Source: Dehalococcoides mccartyi CG5
GTDB lineage: Bacteria; Chloroflexota; Dehalococcoidia; Dehalococcoidales; Dehalococcoidaceae
Direction: 5' to 3'
Length of the DNA: 64,000 bases
Assembly (NCBI RefSeq): GCF_000830885.1
Contig: NZ_CP006951.1
Span: 868,001 to 932,000 of the forward strand
Below the pieces are notes generated by a model. That model had not been told where the DNA came from. It did not search any database and saw nothing but the letters and a program-made list of their open reading frames with translations. Made by a program: the position numbers and the translations under genes. Shown piece after piece: positions 623-8,682 of this stretch. Within the stretch, counting starts at the first letter, position 1, and each line of letters starts with the position of its first letter.

Positions 623-650
623 TATATACAGTTTAGCTATGGCAGGTTAA
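623..650 (-). promoter_or_regulatory. Predicted amt promoter
   Basis: On the minus strand TTAACC (645-650) and TATATA (623-628) are separated by 16 nt, a plausible housekeeping promoter. Transcription would start near 616, giving a short leader with the AGGAGGG site. The GlnR-box-like element at 690-705 would be centred about 80 nt upstream of this start. Confidence 0.5.
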
Positions 651-689
651 AAACAGATTAAGCCTGTATTGCAATCAAATTAATTTTAA

Positions 690-705
690 GTTTCGGGGAT
701 GTTAC
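690..705 (-). promoter_or_regulatory. GlnR-box-like element upstream of amt
   Basis: Read on the minus strand the sequence is GTAAC-ATCCCC-GAAAC, an exact a-site/b-site pair of the actinobacterial GlnR consensus (GTnAC-N6-GAAAC). It lies in the 138-nt gap between a GlnR-like regulator gene and amt, at an activator-type distance from the predicted amt promoter. The consensus comes from knowledge of Streptomyces GlnR; its use here is inferred. Confidence 0.55.
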
Positions 706-734
706 AGCGGAAAGAAAACCGGAATTGAAAAACG

Positions 735-1406
735 CTAAAAACGGCGTTTAAAGCGGTAGCCAATGTTACGTACCGTCTCAACAAATGTATGAGTTGAATC
801 CTCTATTTTGCCACGCAAACGGGTAATGTGGACATCTACAGTGCGGTCACCGCCGTAATAGTCATATCCCCACACCTTGTTAAGCAAAGCCTCGCGTGAA
901 AAAACCCGTCCCCTGTTTTGGGCTAAAAATTTTAAAAGCTCAAATTCACGGAATGTCAGCTCAAGCAATTGCCCTGCCAGAGTAACCTCGCAACCAAGGG
1001 TATCTATTATAAGGTCACCGGCCTTAATAATACCCGGCTCACCCATGCCCCATTTTTCAGCCAAACGCGCCAAGCGGACTTTGAGTTCATTTACCGAACC
1101 GGGCCAGCGGATAAAATCATCCAGCCCCGGTTTAAGGGCTATATCTTCATAATCATCAGCCGGTAATAAACCCATAACCAGAGGGTTTTTGTCCAACTGA
1201 ATATCTTCCGGTATTTCCCATTCGGATTGTTCCGCTTTAAGACTAAGAAAGTCCAGCAGAATAATGTCAGGAGCAAATTCGAACAAAGAGGGATAGGCTA
1301 AAACACAAGAGACCGCCTGTTTTATCTCAAACCGGTCAGCCTCCAGTTCCTTCAGCAAATTACCATTTTTTTTAGCATCAGCAGTGACAATAAACAGTTT
1401 TAACAA
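735..1406 (-). CDS. OmpR-family regulator resembling GlnR
   Basis: A 223-residue response-regulator-like protein: a divergent receiver domain (about 1-115) and an OmpR/PhoB winged helix (about 127-220). The candidate phosphorylation Asp is D52, but the acidic pocket is reduced to D10 and the usual Lys is replaced by Trp (W101), so it may work without phosphorylation, as actinobacterial GlnR does. The DNA-binding domain is very GlnR-like: LTFREFELLKFLAQ, GRVFSREALL, VWGYDYYGGDRTVDVH and VRNIGYRF. The start is a TTG behind AAGGCGGG. It is the last gene of the glutamate synthase operon and sits next to amt, so a nitrogen-regulation role is likely. No sensor kinase is adjacent. Confidence 0.8.
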   Translation of the reverse strand: MLKLFIVTADAKKNGNLLKELEADRFEIKQAVSCVLAYPSLFEFAPDIILLDFLSLKAEQSEWEIPEDIQLDKNPLVMGLLPADDYEDIALKPGLDDFIRWPGSVNELKVRLARLAEKWGMGEPGIIKAGDLIIDTLGCEVTLAGQLLELTFREFELLKFLAQNRGRVFSREALLNKVWGYDYYGGDRTVDVHITRLRGKIEDSTHTFVETVRNIGYRFKRRF

Positions 1407-1427: not shown

Positions 1428-2198
1428 CTAATAAGCGTACAGCCTGCCATAAGGCCTGAGATACTTAGGATAGAGCTTGTAGAAAGGCCTAGCAGCTATC
1501 TCCTCTGCATTATAACCAAAGTGCAGGGCAAATTCATCAATTAAGGGGCGCAATACTTGCCAGTCCGATTCATCCAACTCGGCCTTAGCCACTTCTTTGC
1601 CCAGCTGGTGGTCTTCTACCTTGCCGCTCATATATATTACACCGCCATGCATGCCTGTGCCTATAAAATTGGCCTTGTGGGTTTCATTTTCTTCAAGACC
1701 CAAACCCAGCACAACCAGCACGCCTCCGGCCATGTACTCACCCAAAAAGTCCTGAGCGGTACTGCCTATAACCAGTGAGGGTTTTTTATCCTGATAGGCT
1801 TTCATATGTATACCGGCCCGGTAACCCACATAATCACGCACAAAGAGTTTGCCGCCGCGGGCAGACATGCCAAATATATCCCCTCCATGCCCGTGCACCA
1901 CTATACGTCCGTTATTTAGAGTATTGCCGCAGCAATCCTGTACATTTCCGTTAACAGTTATGCTTGGGCCATCCATAAAAGCCCCCAGGTCATTACCGGG
2001 TGTGCCATTTATGGTTATTTTCACATCCCCTTTAAGGCTGGTACCTATATACCGTTGACCGCAGGCATTATTGAGCTCCAAGGAACGGGTGCCTTCATTT
2101 ACCAGCTCACACAAACGGGTATTCAGATCACGGTAGTAAACACCGTGTAAATTAACACAGGCATTATCCTGATTTTGTTTTACTTCAATGCTAGTCAT
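1428..2198 (-). CDS. Glutamate synthase GXGXG-domain subunit
   Basis: Stand-alone equivalent of the C-terminal GXGXG (third) domain of the large glutamate synthase subunit, 256 residues. Glycine-rich beta-helix repeats are visible: GNDLGAFMDG, NGNVQDCCGNT, GHGGDIFGMSARGG, YVGYRAGIHM and STAQDFLGEYMAGG. In full-length GltB this domain packs against the FMN domain and has a structural role. The ATG directly follows the stop of the FMN-domain gene, so the two are translationally linked. It belongs to the archaeal-type arrangement in which GltB is split into separate polypeptides. Confidence 0.9.
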   Translation of the reverse strand: MTSIEVKQNQDNACVNLHGVYYRDLNTRLCELVNEGTRSLELNNACGQRYIGTSLKGDVKITINGTPGNDLGAFMDGPSITVNGNVQDCCGNTLNNGRIVVHGHGGDIFGMSARGGKLFVRDYVGYRAGIHMKAYQDKKPSLVIGSTAQDFLGEYMAGGVLVVLGLGLEENETHKANFIGTGMHGGVIYMSGKVEDHQLGKEVAKAELDESDWQVLRPLIDEFALHFGYNAEEIAARPFYKLYPKYLRPYGRLYAY

Positions 2199-3701
2199 TT
2201 ATTCACCTGCCGCCCTTACTCCAAGTATTTTCAGCTCTTCAGCGGATAGACCCACACCCCGCAGATGGAGGCGGTTACCTCTGAGACTTTCAATAGCATT
2301 TACGCCCAAGCCGCCCAGCATATCCTTAATCTCCAAACTCCAACCGCGAAGCAGATTGGAAAGGCGCTTGGCGCCTATTTCAGGGTTGATCCTCTTGGTC
2401 AGAGCCAAATCTGAGGTACAAATACCCCAAGAGCATTTGCCAGTATGGCATTGCTGGCAGAGATGACAGCCTAAAGCTACCAGAGCGGCTGTGCCGATAT
2501 TGACAGCGTCAGCACCCAAAGCAATAGCCTTGAAAACATCACCGCTGTTGCGGATACCGCCTGAAATCACCAGCGAAGCCTGATTGCGGATACCTTCTTC
2601 ACGCAGTCGTGAATCAACCGCCGCCAGAGCCAGTTCAATAGGTATACCCACGTTATCACGGATAACCTTGGGAGCAGCACCGGTAGCACCCCGCATACCG
2701 TCAATGGTCACAATATCCGCACCCGCCCGGACAATACCGCTGGCAATAGCTGCCACGTTATGTACCGCTGCAATTTTTACTGAAATGGGCACGCGATACC
2801 GGGTGGCTTCTTTAAGGCCATATATAAGCTGTGAAAGGTCTTCAATAGAGTAAATATCGTGCTGGGGGGCGGGAGAAATAGCATCTGTCCCCATGGGTAT
2901 CATGCGGGTAAGGGAAACATCTGCACTCACCTTTTCACCGGGCAAATGTCCGCCAATGCCGGGTTTGGCACCCTGGCCTATTTTGATTTCTACTATTCGG
3001 CCGGAGTTCAGGTAATCATTCTGGACACCATAACGGCCGGAAGCTACCTGCACAATGGTATTATCCTTGAATTCCATCAGGCTGGAGTGAAGACCGCCTT
3101 CACCGGTATTCCACATAGTGCCCATGTTTTTGGCGGCCTGAGCCAGAGAACGGTGGACATTCAGGCTGATAGCGCCATATGACATGGCAGAGAACATCAG
3201 CGGTACATCAATCTTTACCTGAGGAGCAACGTTCACTTCTATATTGCCGTATTTATCAAAAGTGGCTTTTTCAGGTTTGCGTCCCAAATAGGTGGTCAGT
3301 TCCATAGGCTCACGCAAAGGGTCTATGGAGGGGTTGGTAACCTGTGAAGCATTTATAAGCAGTTTATCCCAGTAAATGGGCTTGGCCTTGTCCATACCCA
3401 TACCGGTAAGTAGAACACCGCCTGTTTCAGCCTGCTTGAAAATATCTTCTATCATTTCAGGCGTCCAGTTGGCATTCTGGCGGTATTCCAGAGGATTATT
3501 CCGAACTACCAGCGCACCGGTGGGGCAGAAAGTCACACAGCGGTGACAACCCACACAGTTCTGGTTGCGAACCTTTATCTGATCGTCATCCGCGTCATAA
3601 TAGTGGGTATCAAAGCTGCACTGGGTTATGCAGACCTTGCACTTGATACAACGATCTTCAATTCTGTCTACTATAAATTTAGAAGGTAAAAATGTCTTCA
3701 T
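2199..3701 (-). CDS. Glutamate synthase FMN-domain subunit with N-terminal ferredoxin domain
   Basis: Catalytic part of a split glutamate synthase, 500 residues, converting 2-oxoglutarate plus ammonia to glutamate. An N-terminal 2[4Fe-4S] domain has C18, C21, C24, C28 and C49, C52, C55, C59. The FMN (beta/alpha)8 domain follows, with MSYGAIS, EGGLHSS, KIGQGAKPGIGGHLPG and GMRGATGAAP. Near residue 400 CHLCQQCHTGKC corresponds to the 3Fe-4S cysteine motif of GltB. The built-in ferredoxin domain and a separate ferredoxin gene at the head of the operon suggest an iron-sulfur electron path. Two nucleotides separate it from hisF and none from the GXGXG subunit. Confidence 0.92.
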   Translation of the reverse strand: MKTFLPSKFIVDRIEDRCIKCKVCITQCSFDTHYYDADDDQIKVRNQNCVGCHRCVTFCPTGALVVRNNPLEYRQNANWTPEMIEDIFKQAETGGVLLTGMGMDKAKPIYWDKLLINASQVTNPSIDPLREPMELTTYLGRKPEKATFDKYGNIEVNVAPQVKIDVPLMFSAMSYGAISLNVHRSLAQAAKNMGTMWNTGEGGLHSSLMEFKDNTIVQVASGRYGVQNDYLNSGRIVEIKIGQGAKPGIGGHLPGEKVSADVSLTRMIPMGTDAISPAPQHDIYSIEDLSQLIYGLKEATRYRVPISVKIAAVHNVAAIASGIVRAGADIVTIDGMRGATGAAPKVIRDNVGIPIELALAAVDSRLREEGIRNQASLVISGGIRNSGDVFKAIALGADAVNIGTAALVALGCHLCQQCHTGKCSWGICTSDLALTKRINPEIGAKRLSNLLRGWSLEIKDMLGGLGVNAIESLRGNRLHLRGVGLSAEELKILGVRAAGE

Positions 3702-3702
3702 T

Positions 3703-4464
3703 TTAGTTCTCCAGCCTTACCGGCAAACCCTTGCTCTTAAGATACTTTTTTACTTCGGCTATGCTATACCGCCCGTAATGGAAAATGCTAGCCGCCAGCA
3801 CCGCATCTGCCTGCCCCTTATCCAAGGCGTTATACAGGTCTTCCGGGCTACCCGCTCCGCCGGAGGCGATAACAGGTATATTTAAGCGGGAACCTACTTC
3901 CCGATTAAGTTCGTTGTCATATCCGGTATTTTTACCGTCGGCATCAATACTGGTCAGGAGTATTTCCCCCGCACCCAACTGCTCTGCTTTCATCGCCCAC
4001 TCCACCGCATCCAGACCGGTGGGTTTCTTTCCGCTATGGGTATAAACCTGCCAACTATTGCCTTCCCTTTTGGCATCAATGGCTACCACGATACACTGGC
4101 GGCCAAATTTTTCAGCCCCACGGCTTATCAGATCAGGGTCAGATACTGCTGCCGAATTTACAGAAACTTTGTCAGCACCTGCCCTGAGCAGCGTAGTCAT
4201 ATCAGCAATGCTCCGCAGACCGCCCCCCACACACAGTGGTATAAAAACCTCTTTGGATACTTTTTCCACCACCTCAGCCATAGTCTTGCGTTCTTCGGTA
4301 GTGGCGGAAATATCCAGAAATACCAGCTCGTCAGCACCTTCACGGTAGTAACGGGCCGCCAGTTCCACCGGGTCACCGGCATCACGCAGATTTACAAAAC
4401 TGGTGCCTTTGACTACCCGTCCGTTATTCACATCTAAACATGGAATAACCCGCTTATTCAGCAT
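3703..4464 (-). CDS. hisF: Imidazole glycerol phosphate synthase subunit HisF
   Basis: Cyclase subunit of IGP synthase: uses ammonia from HisH to turn PRFAR into imidazole glycerol phosphate and AICAR in histidine biosynthesis. The 253-residue length is typical, and both catalytic aspartates are present at family positions, D11 (IPCLDVNNG) and D130 (VVAID), with phosphate loops CVGGGLR and ASGGAG. Its start overlaps the end of the glutamate synthase amidotransferase gene by 7 nt. Its partner HisH is two genes upstream in the same operon, separated from it by two glutamate synthase genes, which is unusual. Confidence 0.96.
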
Positions 4465-5588
4465 GTAGTAGCTTCCTTCTGAGCTTTAATGGGATTCTTC
4501 AAACTGCCAATCACCGGCACGCCCCCAACGGGCAACCAGACCTTATCCAGTTCAGGTTGTACCAGCCTGATAGCAGACTCTTCAGATGAAATAAACAGTT
4601 TGGATCGGTATTCACCAACTACCATAGGACGCAGGCGGATACGGTCAGTCATACCTATCATTTCGCCGGTATGAGCTATGATAACGGTAAATGGTCCGTT
4701 CAAGAGCAAACCGCCATAAATCTGACGAAGAGTAATCATAATCTTCCGTTCGGCTTCCGGCATACGGGCAATCTGGCTCCAAAGAGGGGCGGAGAATACC
4801 TTGGCAGCCATCTCAACAGACAGGCCGTGCTTGCGCATCAGCAGGTCTACTCCATAAGCTATTACCTCAGTATCGGTTTCCATAGTACACTGGTAGCCGT
4901 ATTGCTCCAGAAAACGCTTGTTTATACCATAGGAAGAAATTTCACCGTTATGCACCACCGTCCAATCCAGCAAGCTGAAAGGGTGAGCACCGCCCCACCA
5001 TCCCTTGGTATTGGTAGGAAAGCGGCCGTGGGAAGTCCACAGATAGCCTTCGTATTCCTCCAGACGGAAGAACCGGCCGATATCCTCAGGATAACCCACA
5101 CCTTTGAAAACACCCATGTTTTTGCCGCTGGAAAAGACGAAAGCATCATCTATACAGGTGTTTATATACATTACCCGGTCTACCACATAATCTTCTTCGC
5201 TAAACTGCCCGCGCTTTTCAGCACTGATAGAAACAAAGTATCTCCAGACAATGGGAGGGTTAACAATCCCCTTCTGGTCACGGGTAGGAACTTCTTCTTT
5301 GTGTTTAACATTCAGGAATTTTTCCAGAAAACACTCCGTCTCGGTTTTAGCTTTCTGGCTAAGGAACATGATATGAAAAGCATAATCATCTGCAAAATCA
5401 GGGTAGATGCCATAAGCGGCAAAACCGCCGCCCAGTCCGTTTCCGCGATCATGCATACTGCCGATAGCAATAATCAAATCTTCCCCGGAAAAACGCCCTC
5501 CGGAGGTATCCATCACCCCAAAAAGCGAACAGGCATCTATAACCTTGCTGTCCGAATGGCTATTGCTTACTCTAGTTAAGTCTCTCAT
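4458..5588 (-). CDS. Glutamate synthase class II amidotransferase subunit
   Basis: Stand-alone version of the N-terminal glutaminase domain of GltB (Ntn-type GATase II), 376 residues, which releases ammonia from glutamine. The likely nucleophile is C20 in [11 protein letters not shown], which aligns with the DAC-G start of mature GltB and implies removal of a 19-residue propeptide. Other family signatures are [27 protein letters not shown] and [11 protein letters not shown]. It lies between the oxidoreductase and hisF on the minus strand. Despite hisF next door, this is a class II enzyme and not a HisH homologue; HisH is encoded separately. Confidence 0.88.
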
Positions 5589-5600
5589 GGAAATCTCCTG

Positions 5601-6908
5601 CTAATGCTTGAAATCTGCCGGGGCTACCCTGCCCGAAGTGTTGCCATGAAGATGTTCTTCACGGCTGTCAGCCGACAGATAGGCCAGACCAAAATTTTCA
5701 TTAAGTATATTATCTTTAATGGGGCGTACATCACTCCGGTCACGCATGAGGCCGAAGATAATGCCGGCAGTATCTGTTTCACCCAGAGTCAACATGCCCA
5801 CAATCTTGCCTTCGGCATTTAAAACCAGCTTCTTGTAGCCGTTGGCAGTCAGAGTTGAAAGAACCTCAAGACCGCTGGCGTCCGGCGGCAATACTGACAT
5901 ACCGGCAGTGGCAATATCCATGCCAAAGTAGTTTAGCGAGTTCATTACTGTACCGCCGTGATAGGTGGTATCCATGCCGGCCATATTGTAACCGGCTATC
6001 CGCCCGCCTATATAGGCATTCGGCCAAATAGGGGTAACCCTTCGGCTGTTATAAATAAAGTCAAAAGATTCGCAGGCATCGCCGCAGGCATATACGTCAG
6101 GGTTGCTGGTGCGCATATTATCATTTACCACCACCCCGCGGTTTACTTCCAATCCGGCGGCTTTAAAAAGCTCTGTCCGGGGAATAACACCAATAGCTAT
6201 TACCAGCATCTGGCTTTCTATCTGGTGGCCGTTATCCAGCTCAACTCCGGCAACTTTGTGCAGACCCAGCACTTTACTGACGGTCCGCCCGGTATTTAAT
6301 TTCACACCGTAAGAAGTGACTGTCTGAGCGGCTATCTTACCGGCTGCTTCATCCAGAATAGTATTCAGGATATGACCTTTAAGCTCAATTATGTCTACTT
6401 CTATACCCAGCTTGGTCAAGGCATCTGCGGCACTCATGCCTATAAGCCCGCCGCCGATAATCACCGCTTTCTTTACATTCTCGGCCTTTACATAGCCGTC
6501 TATCAAAACAGCGTCTTTCATATTAATAAAGTTAAAAACACCCGCCTTGTTTGACCCGTCAATAGGCGGAACAATGGGTTTGCCGCCGGGGGCAAGCAGG
6601 AGTTTGCCGTAACTAATCTTTTCTCCGTTTGAAAGGCTGACTTCATGGGTGGCTGTATTCACTGCTTCCACTTTGGTATCAGTCAGACAGGTAATGTTGT
6701 TGTTAGCATAAAACTCCGGGCGGCGGAAAAGTATTTTTTCCACGGTTTTCTGTCCGGAAAGATACTTGGCTATCATGGGGCGTGAATATGCCAGATAAGG
6801 CTCTTCCCCCACTATGACAATAGAACCGTCACGGTCTACTTCACGAATAGCCTCTGCCGCGCCTATACCGCCGGCAGAACATCCTACAATTAAATAATCG
6901 GCTTTCAT
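5601..6908 (-). CDS. FAD/NAD(P)-dependent oxidoreductase, probable reductase of glutamate synthase
   Basis: A 435-residue pyridine nucleotide-disulfide oxidoreductase-fold flavoprotein. FAD-binding GCSAGGIGAAEAI is near the N-terminus, the NAD(P)-binding IGGGLIGMSAADAL is around residue 150, and VYACGDA is the second FAD motif. No redox-active CxxxxC is seen in the FAD domain, so it resembles NADH oxidase, nitrite reductase or ferredoxin reductase-like enzymes rather than glutathione reductase. It overlaps hisH by 4 nt (ATGA). Its place between split gltB genes suggests it passes electrons from NAD(P)H to the FMN subunit; this is inferred from context. Confidence 0.82.
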   Translation of the reverse strand: MKADYLIVGCSAGGIGAAEAIREVDRDGSIVIVGEEPYLAYSRPMIAKYLSGQKTVEKILFRRPEFYANNNITCLTDTKVEAVNTATHEVSLSNGEKISYGKLLLAPGGKPIVPPIDGSNKAGVFNFINMKDAVLIDGYVKAENVKKAVIIGGGLIGMSAADALTKLGIEVDIIELKGHILNTILDEAAGKIAAQTVTSYGVKLNTGRTVSKVLGLHKVAGVELDNGHQIESQMLVIAIGVIPRTELFKAAGLEVNRGVVVNDNMRTSNPDVYACGDACESFDFIYNSRRVTPIWPNAYIGGRIAGYNMAGMDTTYHGGTVMNSLNYFGMDIATAGMSVLPPDASGLEVLSTLTANGYKKLVLNAEGKIVGMLTLGETDTAGIIFGLMRDRSDVRPIKDNILNENFGLAYLSADSREEHLHGNTSGRVAPADFKH

Positions 6909-7522
6909 TTTTTATCTCCCAGAGCCATCTTAAAAAAGTTTTGATATAACTTTAAGCCGTAGCTACCGCTCTTTTCCGGATGGAACTGGGTAGCGATTAG
7001 GCGTTTATTGATAACCAGACTGCAAAAATCCACTCCATAGTCTGTGGTTGCCCCTATAATATTCCGGTCTGCAGGGCTGGCATAATAACTGTGAACAAAA
7101 TAAAAATCTGTCCCGTCAGGAATACCTTCAAATAAAGGGTGGGAAACCCTTTGCTTCAGCTGATTCCAGCCCATTTGGGGTATCTTTACCCCGTCAGGCA
7201 GGCGTTTTACTTCACCCGCCAAAATACCAAGGCACTTAGTCTGACCGCCCTCTTCAGTGGAGTCAAAAAGCACCTGCATACCCACACATATAGCCAGCAG
7301 GGGAATATCCCTCTTTACCAGCTCTTTTATAGCCTCATCCAACCCTTTTGCCCGCAGACCGGCTACCGTGTCAGCGGCTGCACCTACTCCGGGCAGGATA
7401 ACCGCCTGGGCTGAAAGAATCTCTTTCGGGTCTGAAGTCAGGGTAAACTCATATCCCAAAGCGTGTATGGCATTCGCCACACTCTTCAGGTTACCCCCTC
7501 CGTAATCAACAAGCGCAATCAT
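6905..7522 (-). CDS. hisH: Imidazole glycerol phosphate synthase glutaminase HisH
   Basis: Class I glutamine amidotransferase that supplies ammonia to HisF. The 205-residue length is typical. The nucleophile C79 lies in LLAICVGMQ, the oxyanion strand is PGVG, and the His/Glu of the triad are in TQFHPEKS. It precedes the oxidoreductase gene with a 4-nt overlap. hisH and hisF are in one transcript but are not neighbours, being separated by two split glutamate synthase genes. Confidence 0.96.
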   Translation of the reverse strand: MIALVDYGGGNLKSVANAIHALGYEFTLTSDPKEILSAQAVILPGVGAAADTVAGLRAKGLDEAIKELVKRDIPLLAICVGMQVLFDSTEEGGQTKCLGILAGEVKRLPDGVKIPQMGWNQLKQRVSHPLFEGIPDGTDFYFVHSYYASPADRNIIGATTDYGVDFCSLVINKRLIATQFHPEKSGSYGLKLYQNFFKMALGDKK

Positions 7523-8077: not shown

Positions 8078-8104
8078 ATTTCGCAATCATTTCGCCTGCA
8101 TTAC
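8078..8104 (-). promoter_or_regulatory. Degenerate three-part GlnR-like repeat before the glutamate synthase operon
   Basis: On the minus strand: GTAAT-N6-GAAAT-N6-GAAAT. The first two elements each differ by one base from the GTAAC-N6-GAAAC pair found before amt, with the same 11-bp spacing. It ends about 110 nt upstream of the ferredoxin start and overlaps the 3' tip of mntP. Low complexity makes chance occurrence possible. Confidence 0.35.
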
Positions 8105-8682
8105 AGTAATATGTCCCAACCCAGGGTATGTTCTGCCAGTATTTTTAGACCTATAAAAACCAGTACCAGCCCGCCTGCTACACCAACCCAACGGCTAGCC
8201 ATAAAGCTAATGCGATTGCCCAGTTTAAAACCCAGAAAACTTACAGTCAGTGAAACCAAACCTATCAGCAAAGCTGCAAGCCCGATATTGGTTTCTTCCA
8301 CCGCAAACGCCAAGCCAACTGCCAATGCATCTATAGAAGTAGCTACCGCTACTCCCAGTAAACCAAGCCCCCGGGTAAGGTCAAGTTTTACCAGCTCCTG
8401 GTCATCTTCTCCTTGCAGAGCTTCGTATATCATGCGAACACCGATAAATAACAGCAGGCCAAAAGCAATCCAGTGGTCAAAAGCAGAAATAATATCTATG
8501 ACACTCAGGCCGGCAAAAAAACCGATAACAACCATACCCGCTTGAAATAAACCGAAAGTACCGGCCACCCGCCATATAACTCGGCTTTTAATGCTTGCAT
8601 GGGTACATGCTATGCCGATTGATACGGCAAAACAGTCTGCCGAAAGTCCCAGAGCGATAAATATTACCGACAATAAACTCAT
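8101..8682 (-). CDS. mntP: MntP-type manganese efflux pump
   Basis: Small integral membrane exporter of the MntP (DUF204) family, about 193 residues from the ATG at 8682, with six predicted helices in two homologous halves. The duplicated motifs with membrane aspartates are visible: ALGLSADCFAVSIG near the N-terminus and ATSIDALAVGLAF near the middle. An upstream GTG at 8703 is less likely. No ribosome binding site is visible; TATACT (8694-8699, minus strand) ends 11 nt before the ATG, so the mRNA leader may be almost absent. No yybP-ykoY manganese riboswitch was seen upstream. Confidence 0.85.
   Translation of the reverse strand: MSLLSVIFIALGLSADCFAVSIGIACTHASIKSRVIWRVAGTFGLFQAGMVVIGFFAGLSVIDIISAFDHWIAFGLLLFIGVRMIYEALQGEDDQELVKLDLTRGLGLLGVAVATSIDALAVGLAFAVEETNIGLAALLIGLVSLTVSFLGFKLGNRISFMASRWVGVAGGLVLVFIGLKILAEHTLGWDILL

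Follow-up and report, generated by a model that had tools for sequence, protein, structure and literature searches.

Organization of the regulator locus

The window (the whole 64,000-nt stretch of Dehalococcoides mccartyi CG5 DNA that was analysed) opens on a gene cluster in which genes for a split glutamate synthase are followed by a regulator gene, amt, glnB and glnA (Table 1). The regulator reading frame begins with TTG, encodes a protein ending in KRRF and is separated by 138 nt from amt, whose ATG lies at 596. The protein encoded at 4458-5588 is probably the third component of this split enzyme. Apparent hisF and hisH genes (3703-4464 and 6905-7522, minus strand) lie in between those for the glutamate synthase parts. 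The regulator is an orphan, in that its neighbours are the GXGXG protein gene and amt and no sensor kinase gene adjoins it. A search for plasmid-borne copies of the locus gave no match.

Table 1. Positions of genes and sequence elements at the regulator locus and at nif genes of relatives (window coordinates unless a genome or locus is given)
Feature	Position	Strand	Remarks
amt, ammonium transporter (5′ part)	1-596; whole gene genome 867370-868596	-	PF00909, 432 bits
glnB			PF00543; after amt, overlapping it by 4 nt
glnA			PF00120; after glnB
Predicted -10 element TAAACT	630-635	-	10 nt past last half-site; pattern match genome 868630-868661
Six half-sites, 11-bp period	646-705	-	includes box 690-705
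GlnR-like OmpR-family regulator	735-1406	-	ORF, 223 aa; degenerate receiver and winged helix
GXGXG (GltB domain 3-like) protein	1428-2198	-	PF01493; directly upstream of regulator
FMN glutamate synthase domain protein with ferredoxin	2199-3701	-	PF01645, 449 bits
Class-II glutamine amidotransferase domain protein	4458-5588	-	PF00310
Weak candidate array GACAT-ATTACT-GTAAT-GCAGGC-GAAAT-GATTGC-GAAAT	8078-8115	-	head of operon ending with regulator
Second GlnR-like gene, genus-mate G001	L303:16642-17361 (L303 = G001:C1:1047000-1066900)	-	head of mod and nif genes
11-bp arrays before second GlnR-like gene, modA, nifH, nifB	L303:17410, 16626-16593, 13728-13695, 4985	-
nifH four-half-site arrays	L307:2465; L308:1109	-; +

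Relationship of the regulator to GlnR

GlnR is a nitrogen master regulator that, in the literature consulted, is described from actinomycetes only. The initial annotation had proposed a GlnR-type regulator outside Actinomycetota, with an atypical receiver carrying Trp where Lys is expected and a GlnR-like winged helix. The winged helix indeed matches PF00486 (97.5 bits, Pfam), and the motif VWGYDYYGGDRTVDVH is found in the protein. The receiver matches no receiver family in Pfam at E 0.001, and the Trp (within IRWPG) stands at the position of Lys in many orthologs, a feature of the genus Dehalococcoides that sets it apart from actinobacterial GlnR.

Among all PDB chains, the best matches to the regulator are 8hig (115 bits) and 8hih (104 bits), followed by RegX3 at 87 bits; with a profile of orthologs, the GlnR chains score 175 and 165 versus 161 for RegX3. 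We take 8hig, 8hml and 8hih to be GlnR, their names in the PDB being generic. No GlnR model of NCBIfam matched the regulator, every match lying far under the cut-offs.

Phylogenetic trees were built with GlnR of named actinobacteria, the OmpR-type regulators of one Mycolicibacterium and one Streptomyces, and paralogs from the window genome. This is a modest set of outgroups, for which the PDB ranking provides a broader check. In the full-length tree, 34 GlnR-like sequences form one clade with support of 100/99. A tree of the DNA-binding domain only, a safeguard against degenerate receivers attracting one another, likewise joins the Dehalococcoidales regulators to GlnR (100/97), and the RegX3, MtrA and PhoP types fall outside the GlnR clade in both. 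The regulator thus groups with GlnR and not with the PhoP/RegX3 types. When more distant members of the class are added, support for the GlnR clade is 100 and GlnR appears either as sister to the Dehalococcoidia group or inside it, so that an old common origin with GlnR and an old transfer are both possible.

The likeness to actinobacterial GlnR (Streptomyces, Amycolatopsis, mycobacteria) comprises membership of the clade, a GG(T/D)RTVDVH winged helix and an orphan gene, whereas the Dehalococcoidia regulators form a group of their own and have a more degenerate receiver. They also differ in adjoining amt and glutamate synthase genes and in having, in one genus-mate, a second copy at nif. The GlnR of Bacillus and Paenibacillus is a MerR-type protein that controls nitrogen metabolism, including nif in Paenibacillus; it shares the name and the nitrogen role, but its protein and site are unrelated.

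The atypical receiver of GlnR contains a conserved, unphosphorylated Asp-50 that contacts Thr-9 and Arg-52 (PMC10704036). The Asp and Thr of this network are present in the window regulator and Arg-52 is absent. The Asp is kept within the genus and is often Glu or lost in orthologs; Arg-52 is not conserved. Because there is no Pfam receiver match, Trp replaces Lys, the Asp is missing from many orthologs and Arg-52 is absent, control by phosphorylation seems unlikely, and the receiver would presumably work independently of it. The P-II protein, whose gene adjoins amt, may provide a link.

Tandem half-sites at the amt and glnA promoters

The exact GlnR box previously reported before amt, GTAACATCCCCGAAAC, does occupy 690-705 (minus strand), within the gap that separates the regulator gene from amt and 93 nt upstream of the first base of the amt ATG. 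As a bare word it is at chance level: the 1.36-Mb genome holds 9 copies of the exact 16-mer compared with 19 of its reversed control, and the window contains 13 boxes with at most one mismatch, where 10.3 ± 3.6 would be expected. Counts of the exact 16-mer were accordingly rejected as proof of a box.

The exact box is, however, the far end of an array of six half-sites at a strict 11-bp spacing (705-646). With the ten bases and the -10 element that follow, the sequence reads GTAAC-ATCCCC-GAAAC-TTAAAA-TTAAT-TTGATT-GCAAT-ACAGGC-TTAAT-CTGTTT-TTAAC-CTGCCATAGC-TAAACT. Arrays of only four sites at 11 bp are expected 0.04 times per 64 kb. Moreover, another of the nine exact boxes lies 1.7 kb from the amt box, just before glnA, where a promoter just outside the window carries four half-sites (GTAAC-ATATCG-GAAAC-AATTGC-GAAAT-AAAAGC-GAAAC-AAATAAATGG-TAAACT). 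That the box before amt is a random match is a reading favoured by the exact 16-mers being no commoner than the reversed control; it holds for the bare 16-mer only. For the array it is refuted by the counts at amt in relatives given below and seems to us next to impossible, since the six-site 11-bp register, the N10-TAAACT spacing, the second array at glnA and the order-wide conservation described below exceed chance.

These site numbers equal those of Streptomyces coelicolor GlnR, which has three boxes (six sites) at amtB and two at glnA (PMC5826061). Four GlnR DNA-binding domains have been seen head to tail on promoter DNA (reviewed in PMC10704036). In our own count, an actinobacterial half-site-N10-NANNNT arrangement occurs in 9 of 11 amt regions from six genomes, where 1.15 would be expected per spacing. 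The two systems resemble each other in half-site consensus, in the 11-bp head-to-tail array and in the distance to the -10 element, and differ in that Dehalococcoidia half-sites often end in T.

A third, weak candidate array (8078-8115) consists of three to four half-sites with 11-bp spacing and is conserved in two genus-mates only; for scale, about 0.4 three-site arrays are expected per 64 kb. A TTGACA-N17-TAATTT promoter lies downstream of it. The circuit envisaged in the initial annotation joined ammonium uptake to glutamate synthesis. Its first half finds support in the amt array, and its second half, because it depends on this weak array, is weakly supported.

Further matches to the site pattern in the window genome lie at 549589, 601198, 647527, 983613 and 1227115; the neighbourhoods of those at 601198, 647527 and 983613 contain no nitrogen gene beside the match. 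The site at 601198-601229 (plus strand), TTAAT-N6-TTAAT-N10-TATAAT, precedes an ABC transporter ATPase gene and has like sites in both genus-mates.

Conservation in Dehalococcoidia

Forty relatives were searched for the regulator, glnA and amt, and the upstream regions were then read. For telling orthologs apart, 215 bits is a safer cut-off than 195, which was abandoned since one genus-mate (G001) has a second GlnR-like protein that scores 204. Among 400 Chloroflexota genomes, matches above paralog level are confined to the class Dehalococcoidia.

The sequences upstream of amt were compared in about 24 Dehalococcoidales genomes (32 regions). Half-site pairs of the form G(T/A/C)AA(C/T) at a distance of 11 bp number 58 in them, compared with 0.4 in shuffled sequences; additional peaks stand at 22, 33 and 44 bp, and intermediate distances hold few pairs. 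A half-site followed by N10-TANRNT is present in 25 of these regions (0.6 expected), and by eye the remainder have a T-type last half-site or a slightly different -10 element at the same distance. Most amt arrays consist of two, four or six half-sites. The box before amt is thus conserved in register and not in its letters: in two genus-mates it is inexact (GTAAT...GAAAT and GTAAT...GAAAC) with the register unchanged. Second amt copies in several relatives (L051, L103, L104 and L106) each have their own array of two to four sites.

The glnA array is found in the three Dehalococcoides and some other genomes, apparently those in which glnA has its own promoter, and is absent elsewhere. A strict four-site pattern applied to eight genomes matched before amt in all eight, before glnA in three, before nifB and nifH in one each and at four other places, whereas the reversed pattern gave two matches in the same genomes.

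The regulator is adjacent to arrays in many genomes. Even in distant families of the class (L286, L289) it remains beside amt, with the array between them. Genomes that carry the regulator mostly have amt (26 of 30), while none of 11 regulator-less genomes does (Fisher p 4e-7, uncorrected for kinship or genome incompleteness). In the regulator-less genomes that were read, no array precedes glnA. Together, the trees and the conserved arrays favour the existence of a GlnR-type regulator beyond Actinomycetota.

Arrays at nitrogen fixation genes of relatives

A pattern built from the amt and glnA sites was scanned in relatives. In G001, five of nine matches precede amt, glnA, nifB, nifH and modA, so the nif promoters match a pattern that they did not help build. 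The second GlnR-like gene of this genome heads a modA-nifH-nifDK cluster. Four-site arrays also precede nifH in two other Dehalococcoidia genera (G003 and G472). No such array was found at the good nifH match of G434 or at more distant NifH-like genes, and the window genome itself has no nifH match.

Proposed mode of action

We consider it very likely that the locus encodes an orphan activator of the GlnR family that would act on 11-bp-spaced half-sites and switch on ammonium uptake and glutamine synthesis. Dimers would bind head to tail, one per pair of G(T/A)AA(C/T) half-sites, and cover the -35 regions of two promoters, that of amt-glnB with six half-sites and that of glnA with four. The proximal dimer would most likely touch RNA polymerase and recruit it to promoters that lack a TTGACA -35 element. 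Most likely, ammonium uptake and glutamine synthesis would be turned on when nitrogen is short, a condition suggested by analogy with GlnR.

The same sites could serve a regulator that binds and represses, or acts both ways, as Streptomyces GlnR does in repressing some targets such as gdhA (PMC5826061). We judge this improbable, given that 10 nt separate the last half-site from the -10 element, as in actinobacterial amtB, where GlnR is an activator (PMC5826061), and that the amt promoter, like that of glnA, has a -10 element with no evident TTGACA -35.

In a different reading, the arrays would be the target of some other OmpR/PhoB-type regulator, such as a RegX3/PhoB-like paralog, and the neighbouring gene would have another role. 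Regulators of the OmpR type generally recognize 11-bp repeats, 13 such proteins score above the Pfam cut-off in the window genome, and the proximal half-sites of its amt promoter (TTAAT/TTAAC) could be read by other regulators of this type. In a relative, G005, TTAAC repeats at an identical N10 distance stand before rdhA-like genes. Nevertheless, the arrays track the regulator gene, genomes devoid of the regulator have no amt, the second GlnR-like gene adjoins the nif arrays, and the half-sites fit the published GlnR consensus gTnAc-n6-GaAAc (PMC10704036), which together leave this reading with little probability. The phosphate regulators RegX3, PhoP and PhoB share the OmpR-type fold and 11-bp direct repeats, but they lie outside the GlnR clade, and no sensor kinase gene adjoins the window regulator.

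A probable GlnR-type switch in Dehalococcoidia

The GlnR relative beside ammonium-uptake genes and the tandem sites before amt, glnA and nif genes of relatives suggest that a GlnR-type switch is probably used across a whole class of Chloroflexota. A much-studied type of regulator would thereby be extended beyond one phylum. In a wider reading, which we hold to be evenly balanced, GlnR would not be an actinobacterial invention; it would be an old, class-wide system of Dehalococcoidia that acts as the nitrogen master switch of these organohalide respirers and whose second GlnR paralog would control nif and molybdate uptake. Literature searches combining GlnR with Chloroflexi, Chloroflexota or Dehalococcoid- returned nothing on the topic by title or abstract, and no named regulator of nitrogen control in Dehalococcoidia was found in the literature. 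Dehalococcoidia are used in the clean-up of chlorinated solvents, and some studies have cultivated them with limiting ammonium. What the analysis offers for direct testing is a protein, its exact predicted sites and a predicted regulon to which nif belongs.

Sites with the geometry of the amt array and another half-site occur at L344:2237 and 6381 (minus strand), where TTAAC-N6-TTAAC-N10-TATACAAT precedes genes resembling those of reductive dehalogenases, next to a two-component pair. These are perhaps a box for the rdh regulator.
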